Of a stretch of DNA of 33,411 nucleotides, positions 3,778 through 29,971 are shown piece by piece (the first letter of the stretch is position 1; each line of letters starts with the position of its first letter). Source of the stretch: Verrucomicrobia bacterium Ga0077533 (GTDB lineage Bacteria > Verrucomicrobiota > Verrucomicrobiia > Opitutales > Opitutaceae); the NCBI GenBank assembly GCA_001464505.1, contig LNEH01000124.1, positions 1-33,411 of the forward strand, in the 5' to 3' direction. The notes under the pieces are model-generated. The model searched no databases. It was not told where the DNA came from and worked only from the letters and a program-made list of their open reading frames with translations. The position numbers and the translations under genes were made by a program.

Positions 3778-5481
3778 ATGATTTCCTGGATCCAACGCTA
3801 CTTTCAGAAGCACTTCCGCCTCGTGTTCGCCGTCATCCTGATCGCCGTGGCTGTGCCCATGGTCTTCATCTACAGCGCCTCGGGCGGCACCGGCGACGGC
3901 AAGCACGCGGGCAAACTCCTCGAACGCCCCTTCTTCGGCTACAACCTCGGCAATGCCGAGCAGACCCGCCGCATCGTCTCCGACGGCACCTGGAGCATCC
4001 GCCTTAAGGCCGGCTACGACGCCCTCCAAGGCGACCAAGTCCAGCAATACGCCCTGCAACGCATCGCCGGTCTGGCCCTCGCCGAAGAGCTCCACCTTCC
4101 TGTTCCCACCGCCGAGCAGGTCGCCAAGGCTGTCGCCACCCTCCGGGCCTTCCAGAACGAACAGGGTCAGTTCGACCAAGCCCGCTACACCCAGTTCGCC
4201 GACTCCCTTAAGACCCACAACGACCTCACGGGTGCCGACATCAACCGCATCCTGCGCGACGACGTGCGCCTGGAGGCGCTGGCCAAGCTCGTCGGTGGCC
4301 CGGGCTACGTCCTCCCCCACGACATCAAGCAGCAGCTCATCCTGGCCGACTCCATCTGGACCATCCAAGTCGCCACCCTCGACTACGCCGCCTTCAACCC
4401 CGCCCTCAACCCGACCGAGGACACGTTGAAAAAATTCCATGCGGACAACGCCTTCCGCTACGACGTGCCCGCCCGCCCGCGGCTGAGCCTCGTCGAGTTC
4501 AAGGGTGCCGACTACCTACCGCCCGTCGCCCCCACCGAGGCCGAGCTTCGCGCCTTCTACAATTCCAACCCCGCCCGCTTCCCGGTTTCCGCCCTGAGCT
4601 CGCCGAATGGGCCCGCCGAAACCGGCAAGAAGGACGACAAACCAGCAATCGCTCCCGCCACCACCGTGGACAATTTCCTCAAAGTCCGCGCACAGGTTGA
4701 AGCCACCTTGAGGGAGGCCGTCGGCGCCCGCGGCGCCGCCAAGGCCGCCAACGACCTCGCCACCGCCATCTTCGAGCGCAAGCTCGCCGCCAACTCGCCG
4801 GAGCTGACCGCCTTCCTCGCCGAACAGCGCCATCCCGCGAAAGCCGTCGCCCCCTTCGCCCCCGATCAGCCCCCGGCCGATATGCCATGGCTCGCCAGCT
4901 ACACCGAGCAGATCTCGCGCCTCAGCAAGGAACGTCACTTCTCCGACCCGCTGCCCACCACCGACAGTTTCGTCATCCTGCTGTGGAACGAGAGCCTGCC
5001 GGGCTACCAACCCCTCTTCACCGAAGTGCGCGACCGCGTGCTCGCCGATTACAAAGACGGCGAGAAACGAAAACTCTTCATCGCCCGTGGCCAGACCCTG
5101 CGCACGCAGCTTGCCGCCGCCGCCAAGACGGCCGCCGCCAATTTCGCCGCCACCGCCGCCACCGAGAAACTTGAGGTCAAGAGTTATGCCGGCTTTACCT
5201 TCCGCCAGCCGCCGCAGGACATGCCTTACCAGGCCTTCGGCGCTCTCCAAGGCCTCGAGGCGGGTCAGGTCGCCGAGATGGTGGCTGACGCGGATAAAGG
5301 CTACCTCGTTTTTGCCCAGGAGAAAAAACAACCCGACCTCACGCCCGGCAACCCGCGCTACGCCGAGCTCCAGCAGCAGATGATGATCCGCACCGCCGCC
5401 AACAACGGCAGCACCTATCTCGGCGAACTCGTCGAGCGCGAACTCCGGAAATCCGAAGCGGCCGCCCCCGTCCGGCCCTGA
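3778..5481 (+). CDS. SurA/PpiD-like periplasmic peptidyl-prolyl isomerase / foldase
   Basis: Single N-terminal TM anchor (FRLVFAVILIAVAVPMVFIY) followed by SurA_N-like helical region (ALQRIAGLALAEELHLPVPTAEQVAKAVATLRAFQNEQGQFDQARYTQF). Confidence 0.75.
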   Translation: MISWIQRYFQKHFRLVFAVILIAVAVPMVFIYSASGGTGDGKHAGKLLERPFFGYNLGNAEQTRRIVSDGTWSIRLKAGYDALQGDQVQQYALQRIAGLALAEELHLPVPTAEQVAKAVATLRAFQNEQGQFDQARYTQFADSLKTHNDLTGADINRILRDDVRLEALAKLVGGPGYVLPHDIKQQLILADSIWTIQVATLDYAAFNPALNPTEDTLKKFHADNAFRYDVPARPRLSLVEFKGADYLPPVAPTEAELRAFYNSNPARFPVSALSSPNGPAETGKKDDKPAIAPATTVDNFLKVRAQVEATLREAVGARGAAKAANDLATAIFERKLAANSPELTAFLAEQRHPAKAVAPFAPDQPPADMPWLASYTEQISRLSKERHFSDPLPTTDSFVILLWNESLPGYQPLFTEVRDRVLADYKDGEKRKLFIARGQTLRTQLAAAAKTAAANFAATAATEKLEVKSYAGFTFRQPPQDMPYQAFGALQGLEAGQVAEMVADADKGYLVFAQEKKQPDLTPGNPRYAELQQQMMIRTAANNGSTYLGELVERELRKSEAAAPVRP

Positions 5482-14272: not shown

Positions 14273-14350
14273 TGGGGCGGCCAACGGGATTCGAACCCGC
14301 GACCCCAAGAATCACAATCTTGTGCTCTAACCAGCTGAGCTATGGCCGCC
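14273..14350 (-). tRNA. tRNA-His (anticodon GTG), 3' CCA encoded
   Basis: Minus strand GGCGGCCATAGCTCAGCTGGTTAGAGCACAAGATTGTGATTCTTGGGGTCGCGGGTTCGAATCCCGTTGGCCGCCCCA; 7-bp acceptor stem GCGGCCA/TGGCCGC, G-1 opposite C73, T-loop GGTTCGAATCC, anticodon loop TTGTGAT. Confidence 0.97.
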
Positions 14351-28757: not shown

Positions 28758-28893
28758 TAATACCAACGTCCCCTTGAATTTAGACTGTCATTGCGAGGAG
28801 CGCAGCGACGAAGCAATCCATCTTGGATCGCCACGGCGCGCTTCGCACACCTCGCGATGGCAAAAGTCTAAAAGCTTAGGGACGTTGGTATAA
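28758..28893. mobile_element. MITE/REP-like element with 13-bp perfect terminal inverted repeats
   Basis: ATACCAACGTCCC (28760-28772) vs GGGACGTTGGTAT (28879-28891); inner ttagact/agtctaa and cattgcgaggagcgcagcgacgaagcaatcc ... cctcgcgatgg. Confidence 0.65.
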
Positions 28894-28937
28894 CTCCGCC
28901 CGCATCATCGCCGCCCAGTTGTTGGCATCAGTAAATT

Positions 28938-29257
28938 CGGTTCCTCGCTACTTTCGGTGGGTTGCCGTCAAGCCCATCCCCCTGCAGTTTTTGGAACCAC
29001 TAATCGGTTTCGCCAACGGGCGAAACTCTGCTTCACCCCTCCGACTGATCGTCTCCGGAGTTGTTTTTGGGGTCTGCTGATCGCAGACTTGGAAAATCAG
29101 CCGGCGATAAGCCGGCCCCCGAAACCCAGTGGCGGAGACGATCAGTCGAAGCCGATCCTTGAAGGATTCATCCGTTGATGAATCCATTTTAGTGGTCAAA
29201 CTCCTCCAAGCGGGGACGAATCCAGCCCACTTACCCACCGGAAACAGCGAGGAACCG
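28938..29257. mobile_element. 320-bp MITE-like element with TIRs, target-site duplication and multiple internal hairpins
   Basis: TIR cggttcctcgctactttcggtgggt (28938-28962) vs acccaccggaaacagcgaggaaccg (29233-29257), 22/25 complementary; flanking direct repeat TAAATT at 28932-28937 and 29258-29263. Confidence 0.65.
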
Positions 29258-29285
29258 TAAATTCCCTATCGGCCGTCGCCGCGCA

Positions 29286-29334: not shown

Positions 29335-29544
29335 ATGAGAGACTTCACCGCCGTCGTTGAAAAAGACCCCGTGACCGGCCTGTTGGTCGGCTATATCCCG
29401 GGCTTCGCCGGGGCGCACTCCCAGGCGGCGAACCTCGATGAATTGCAGGCTAATCTGCAAGAGGTGGTGGCCATGCTGCTGGAAGATGGCGACCCGAAGC
29501 TTGAGGCGGAGTTTGTCGGCACCCAAACCATCAGGGTCGCCTGA
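29335..29544 (+). CDS. hicB: HicB-like antitoxin (short form)
   Basis: [51 protein letters not shown]: HicB_like fold; directly upstream of hicA. Confidence 0.9.
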
Positions 29545-29546
29545 CC

Positions 29547-29771
29547 GTGGGCACGGTTCCCGTCCTGAAGCCGACCGAGGTCTGCCGAATACTGGAACGG
29601 CGGGGGTTTGTCGTCGTGCGGCAGCGCGGCTCCCATGTGCAATACCGTCACCCCGACGGCCGGGGCACCACCGTGCCGATGCACAAGGGCCGCGACATCG
29701 CCCCGCCACTGCTCCGCCAGATCGCCAAGGACATCGGCCTCACCATCGGGGAATTCCTGGAACATCGGTAG
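29547..29771 (+). CDS. hicA: HicA-like mRNA interferase toxin
   Basis: [68 protein letters not shown]: YcfA/HicA pattern with GSH catalytic His; GTG start 2 nt after the hicB stop. Confidence 0.92.
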
Positions 29772-29833
29772 CCATCCGCACTCTGGCGAGTGGACCTCCA
29801 CCGCCTCGCCCGACCGCAACGGTGCCAGCCACC

Positions 29834-29971
29834 GAGTAACGTTTGAGATGATTGATTCCGGCTTGTCCCGCCGTAGCAGCATGGCGCAGGCGGATGTAGA
29901 ACATGGTAGCGGCAGTGGTGACTGGTTTTGAGACTCGCGCAACCCACCGCCTTTCATGTTATCTGTTCGGC
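29834..29971 (+). other. Candidate attC-like site 0 (weak)
   Basis: Left GAGTAACgtttgagatga pairs partly with right tcatgttatctGTTCGGC; next ORF ATG lies 15 nt after the core. Confidence 0.22.
29862..29895. repeat. Family F hairpin repeat copy
   Basis: cttgtcccgccgtagcagcatggcgcaggcggatg; matches the reverse complement of 30401-30432 with small indels. Confidence 0.45.

Follow-up and report, generated by a model that had tools for sequence, protein, structure and literature searches.

The window analysed here is a stretch of 33,411 nucleotides from Verrucomicrobia bacterium Ga0077533, a member of the Opitutaceae, and it contains a short segment bounded by inverted ends and filled with small palindromes. 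This locus raises the question of whether such a segment is a mobile element, a structured RNA, or a combination of the two. Our preferred reading, to which we assign a probability of about 0.75, is that it is a 318-bp ISL3-type MITE carrying an independently distributed Opitutaceae hairpin array, the stems of which are kept complementary at the DNA level. The mobile part of this reading is secure and the DNA-level interpretation of the core is likely. The evidence consists of a mobility signature, a match of the ends to ISL3 elements, the distribution of the core, covariation in its stems and the lack of a G-U excess; transposase action in trans, a DNA-level role and recognition of the loops are inferred.

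The element is non-autonomous and spans 28939-29256, with outermost bases, read from the sequence, of GGTTCC...GGAACC. The original prediction correctly placed a mobile element here but set its limits one base too wide on each side (28938-29257, 320 bp). Its inverted ends were confirmed with a match of 21/24 rather than 22/25, as the outer C/G is part of the target duplication, and the exact flanking repeat, given as the 6-bp TAAATT, is 8 bp in length (GTAAATTC). The features of the element are as follows.

28931-28938, no strand: left copy of the target duplication, GTAAATTC, read directly and scored with the other copies
28939-28962, + strand: left TIR, GGTTCCTCGCTACTTTCGGTGGGT, with genus-wide pattern matches; similar ends adjoin ISL3 transposases elsewhere
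28963-28995, no strand: left spacer from TIR to core, variable across the aligned copies
28996-29198, + strand: hairpin-array core, 203 bits with covariance model R1
29007-29026, + strand: left hairpin, GTTTCGCC/GGCGAAAC (helix 2), 97% of cells paired and 5/8 pairs changed on both sides
29043-29053, + strand: mini-hairpin GAC-TGATC-GTC in the 5' arm of a 16-bp stem (helix 3), middle pair AU in 19, CG in 9 and GC in 7
29072-29088, + strand: hairpin GTCTGC-TGATC-GCAGAC (helix 4)
29100-29116, + strand: hairpin GCCGGC-GATAA-GCCGGC (helix 5), one pair being UA in 16, GC in 13 and CG in 6
29132-29152, + strand: hairpin around GAC-GATCA-GTC in the 3' arm of the 16-bp stem (helix 6), pairing 80% overall and 87-100% in the inner three pairs
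29164-29185, + strand: right hairpin, GGATTCATC/GATGAATCC (helix 7)
29199-29232, no strand: right spacer from core to TIR, from the alignment of copies
29233-29256, - strand: right TIR, GGTTCCTCGCTGTTTCCGGTGGGT when read on the - strand, from end pattern matches
29257-29264, no strand: right copy of the target duplication, GTAAATTC, read directly and scored with the other copies

Other copies, which BLASTN was expected to reveal, were found both in the source genome (62 matches at E<=10, some of them self-complementary, with ~30 of the 62 at E<1e-5) and in relatives, with matches in 17 of 38 genomes when the source genome is included. A pattern search recovered ~25 ends of this type in the source assembly and ~90 in one relative (G005). 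Pairing of ends yielded 38 elements, mostly 310-360 bp in length, and 25 of these are flanked by 8-bp duplications with at most one mismatch (15 exact, 10 with a single mismatch). The exact duplications are 73% A+T, compared to 35% A+T (65% G+C) for the window. The source assembly comprises 2.9 Mb at 83% completeness and is interrupted at these repeats; several of its contigs end ~95 bp inside near-identical ends, as would be expected of a recent high-identity burst in a short-read assembly.

An empty site was found in part. The element lies upstream of a likely hicB-hicA toxin-antitoxin pair (29336-29839, called by eye), at a distance of ~80 bp, and the orthologous hicBA locus of a relative (G007) is present without the element and without the neighbouring MITE, but the intergenic DNA there has diverged to 76% identity, such that the single-copy target is not preserved and the exact pre-insertion sequence is unreadable. 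The neighbour is a second MITE-like palindrome just upstream at 28760-28891 (ATACCAACGTCCC...GGGACGTTGGTAT, enclosing the motif cattgcgaggagcgcagcgacgaagcaatc), a further copy of which interrupts a core elsewhere in the source genome (contig C158, L145). The window also encodes a tRNA-His (GTG) on the - strand at 14273-14349.

Protein-coding capacity does not account for the element. An open stretch of at least 90 aa on the - strand is kept in only 4 of 34 full-length copies, a level reached by 14% of shuffles, and the two overlapping open reading frames, which the original prediction took as probable reflections of the repeat, are not conserved among the copies.

The ends point to the ISL3 family as the source of mobility. 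Window-type ends occur in 29 of 384 genomes of the class and reach well beyond the Opitutaceae. Transposases of this family (PF01610) were detected in 17 of 33 end-bearing genomes, often directly adjoining an end, with ~30-80 bp between transposase domain and end in several genomes; such adjacency was seen in G239, G301, G123, G248, G192, G336 and G338. In G179 an IS of 1405 bp is complete (L251, 410-1814), having both ends and a duplication that matches at 7/8 (AAAACAGT/AAAACCGT), and a copy of 1322 bp in G239, likewise with both ends, lies at a contig edge. Within the genus, a genuine ISL3 element from the PF01610-bearing genomes (G010, G001) ends in GGCTCTTC and lies between copies of an 8-bp duplication (TTTTCGTT). 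PF01610 transposases beside the same type of end are present in other genera, but none is found in the source assembly. The genus-wide search for PF01610 returned only G010 and G001, and the domain is absent from the assemblies of G005, G014, G017 and the source genome, the last being only 83% complete; these four assemblies contain no candidate ISL3 gene for mobilizing their copies. An autonomous partner in the same genome is usual for an ISL3-type MITE without being a strict criterion. The element has TIRs in common with an ISL3 element, an 8-bp AT-rich duplication and no transposase gene of its own. The ISL3 partners in other genomes, the many copies and the exact 8-bp duplications bear out the description of the segment as a non-coding mobile element.

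A 2050-bp copy in G275 (L180, 645-2694) gave rise to the idea that an IS1380-type transposase moves the element, as this copy shares the ends, is flanked by an exact 8-bp duplication and encloses an IS1380-like gene. This gene belongs to a separate insertion within the MITE, one that has ends of its own (CCTAAAAACGGCG) and has duplicated ATTAG, and the relatives of the gene lack GGTTCC ends; IS1380-type ends and target duplication are likewise not those of the window element, and this mobilizer is refuted. The IS1380-like gene is itself broken by a TGA, and the insertion sits in an ATTAG of a MITE with the same type of ends.

The interior has a history distinct from that of the ends. In many relatives BLAST matches cover only the inner ~205 bp, and the core so delimited (CCACTAAT...ATTAGTGG) occurs in three settings: in ISL3-type MITEs, in TA-type elements and solo between genes. 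When 54 near-complete copies were sorted by their flanks, 12 were ISL3, 17 TA-type and 25 solo, counts that are approximate owing to loose end patterns. The TA-type carriers, found in G012, G011 and G009, end in GGGAGTGTYTTCAAA, and several are flanked by TA; examples in G012 with TA at the boundary are L372, L377, L378 and L293. With covariance model R1 the core was detected in 14 of 21 genomes of the genus and in 11 of 384 genomes of the class, all of the latter in the Opitutaceae; named records bearing it are MAGs labelled Opitutus sp., Lacunisphaera sp., Oleiharenicola sp. and Opitutaceae bacterium. Because the core was detected in this family alone and the ISL3-type ends extend well beyond it, the two differ in distribution. 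The proposal of a structured module carried by a mobile element is thereby upheld: the interior is an independently distributed palindromic repeat rather than the remnant of a transposase gene. A search of a limited literature collection for transposable inverted repeats in Opitutaceae found no report, and the exact hairpin pattern had no match in viral contigs as a sign of phage carriage.

Seven core sites are orthologous between genomes, with matches on both flanks, and two of these reach another genus (G000/G004/G012/G295 and G016/G011/G295, G000 being the source genome). One such site, shared by source contig C103 and G012, may represent two separate insertions at one place, the G012 copy being of the TA type. 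At the site on contig C142 of the source genome, the core is present in the source genome and G014 and absent from several relatives with tight gene spacing. Such presence and absence, together with the comparisons of orthologs, indicates that cores move over long periods and are retained afterwards. The C142 site (4031-4262) holds unrelated repeats in other species (G018, G011), in the manner of an insertion hot spot. For solo cores there was no sign of a target duplication of their own, direct repeats in their flanks being no commoner than between mismatched flanks. By crude gene calls, the core lies in 30 co-directional, 18 convergent, 12 divergent and 4 unresolved contexts and overlaps a predicted frame in 4; its position is mostly intergenic, and the counts give no strong terminator or promoter signal.

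An inverted, hairpin-forming, intergenic repeat of this kind could be a REP/REPIN-type element moved by a RAYT (Y1 tyrosine transposase). The core does form an inverted hairpin doublet, and Opitutus terrae is known to be rich in REPs (PMC3733652). Genus-wide, core-bearing genomes have 2-11 Y1_Tnp (PF01797) matches and five of the seven core-free genomes have none, and the counts are higher in carriers (Mann-Whitney P = 4e-4), a difference that may stem from genome size and the overall load of mobile elements. One core-free genome (G001) has four Y1 matches, the 30 Y1 loci have neither an adjoining core nor TRATC/GATYA hairpins of at least 6 bp, and neither a GTAG nor a CGTC tag adjoins the stems in the consensus of 38 copies. 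Membership in the REP/RAYT group was rejected on the tag and RAYT-flanking evidence despite the presence and absence counts, and we consider this origin improbable.

The interior had been described as highly structured, and the element folds unusually well on either strand, with RNA-parameter MFE values of -151 kcal/mol (+) and -168 kcal/mol (-) that correspond to z = -8.6 and -9.4 relative to shuffles. In the core, six small hairpins sit within an outer CCACTAA/TTAGTGG pairing, and the loops of four of them are TRATC or GATYA. The individually named hairpins all lie within a few bases of their predicted places (29007-29026, 29072-29088, 29100-29116 and 29164-29185). The window copy does contain the perfect 16-bp stem (29042-29057/29133-29148), but the structure conserved elsewhere is that of the local hairpins. 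The arms of the stem are homologous inverted hairpins, each covarying internally: alignment columns 54 and 62 pair in 37 of 38 copies, compared with only 24 of 38 for columns 54 and 163. The long stem was consequently rejected as the conserved fold, as its variable positions pair within arms and the local hairpins covary better. A kissing loop between TRATC and GATYA was also rejected, as 92% of its cells pair but its single variable position does so in only 24 of 38 copies.

Across the 38 copies the local-hairpin structure pairs in 92.9% of cells. Both-side changes affect 27 pairs (shuffled mean 10.6) and 109 cells (24.1 in shuffles), values reached by 0 of 500 shuffles. In the loops, T, A, T and C of TRATC and G, A, T and A of GATYA hardly vary. 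In six comparisons of orthologs, 17 stem pairs had both partners altered and 7 had one, and 24 lacked pairing in one or more copies. Divergent cores in G204 (L276, L287) have the bounds ACCACGAAT/ATTCGTGGT in place of ACCACTAAT/ATTAGTGGT, as if both sides had changed together.

The original prediction had raised the possibility of a structured RNA carried by a mobile element. Strong covariation, very low folding energy and the intergenic position of most copies would suit such an RNA, be it an ncRNA or a 3'-UTR element, with the MITE as its means of spread. RNA helices strongly prefer G-U. In 90 copies taken in their best orientation, the stem cells comprise 3810 Watson-Crick, 66 G-U (1.6%) and 71 A-C combinations, and by copy the two mismatches are each the commoner in 30 with 30 ties, a comparison that would be blunted if the loci were transcribed from differing strands. 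The tRNA control at the same loci gave 21 G-U and 0 A-C, with a bias as ARAGORN accepts G-U. Both strands fold equally well and both score with the covariance model, and in co-directional contexts 19 copies lie in the strand of the genes and 11 opposite, which is no clear bias. In Rfam only a tRNA of the window exceeded its threshold; the best match for the element was Hammerhead_II, which scored 20.5 bits, below the cut-off of 37. A hammerhead ribozyme was rejected on this score and on inspection, the ribozyme core being unconserved in the copies. With G-U no commoner than A-C, neither strand favoured and no Rfam match over threshold, the RNA proposal lacks support, and we regard it as unlikely.

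The lack of a G-U excess and the equal folding of both strands point instead to constraint on DNA or to repair by template switching at imperfect palindromes, for which there is precedent (PMC8794818). In the latter case, template switching would copy one arm onto the other, the stems would stay perfect by mutation and the element would be junk DNA. Watson-Crick symmetry without a G-U excess fits this mechanism, as do the multi-base double changes in orthologous copies (17 both-side, 7 one-side). Such repair gives loops no protection, however, and the near-invariance of the loops disfavours repair alone; orthologous copies also persist across genera. As a full explanation, template switching is possible but falls short of probable.

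Under our preferred reading of an ISL3-type MITE with a DNA-level hairpin array, an ISL3-family DDE transposase supplied in trans would recognize the 24-bp ends, and insertion at AT-rich sites would generate the 8-bp duplication. The array travels in ISL3-type MITEs and in a second, TA-ended MITE type, and also resides solo between genes, with stems apparently kept complementary as DNA, as Watson-Crick pairs are equal on both strands. The core may then act as extruded or single-stranded DNA hairpins with a protein reading the loops, or template-switch repair may maintain the pairing. More specifically, we tentatively suggest, as a somewhat doubtful extension, that the core is an undescribed family-specific DNA hairpin array whose TRATC/GATYA loops are read by a host or transposon protein in the extruded or single-stranded state, and that it has been repeatedly captured by unrelated DDE transposons for an advantage to carrier or host.

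These results illustrate that the interior of a MITE can be a conserved module with its own history, here found on its own as well as in transposons of two unrelated kinds, and retained at one intergenic site across two genera. They also show that counting G-U against A-C in covarying stems is a simple test for distinguishing palindromes maintained as DNA from RNA genes; judged on its strong covariation alone, the core would have been labelled a structured RNA.

Several known systems share features with this element. Like REP/REPIN elements (BIMEs), the core forms intergenic inverted hairpin pairs with compensatory changes, high copy number and restriction to a family; unlike them it is ~200 bp long with six hairpins, has no GTAG/CGTC tag, does not flank a RAYT and also travels inside DDE-type MITEs. 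ERIC and IRU sequences are long, imperfectly palindromic intergenic repeats without their own transposase. The core resembles them in these respects, but it is documented in two MITE types, and no sequence relation between them is known to us. The GGGAGTGTYTTCAAA elements with TA resemble IS630/Tc1-mariner-type MITEs with a TA target, an analogy drawn from the ends alone, whereas the window copy is not of the TA type. In its ends the element corresponds to ISL3 ISs and MITEs, which share GG(T/C)TC(T/C)TC-type ends, the 8-bp AT-rich target duplication and, in other genera, PF01610 genes adjoining near-identical ends. The window element differs from ISL3 ISs in having no transposase and an interior that is an unrelated hairpin array and not the remnant of an IS deletion. 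What is new relative to these systems is an ISL3-type MITE with an Opitutaceae hairpin-array repeat that also occurs without the MITE.
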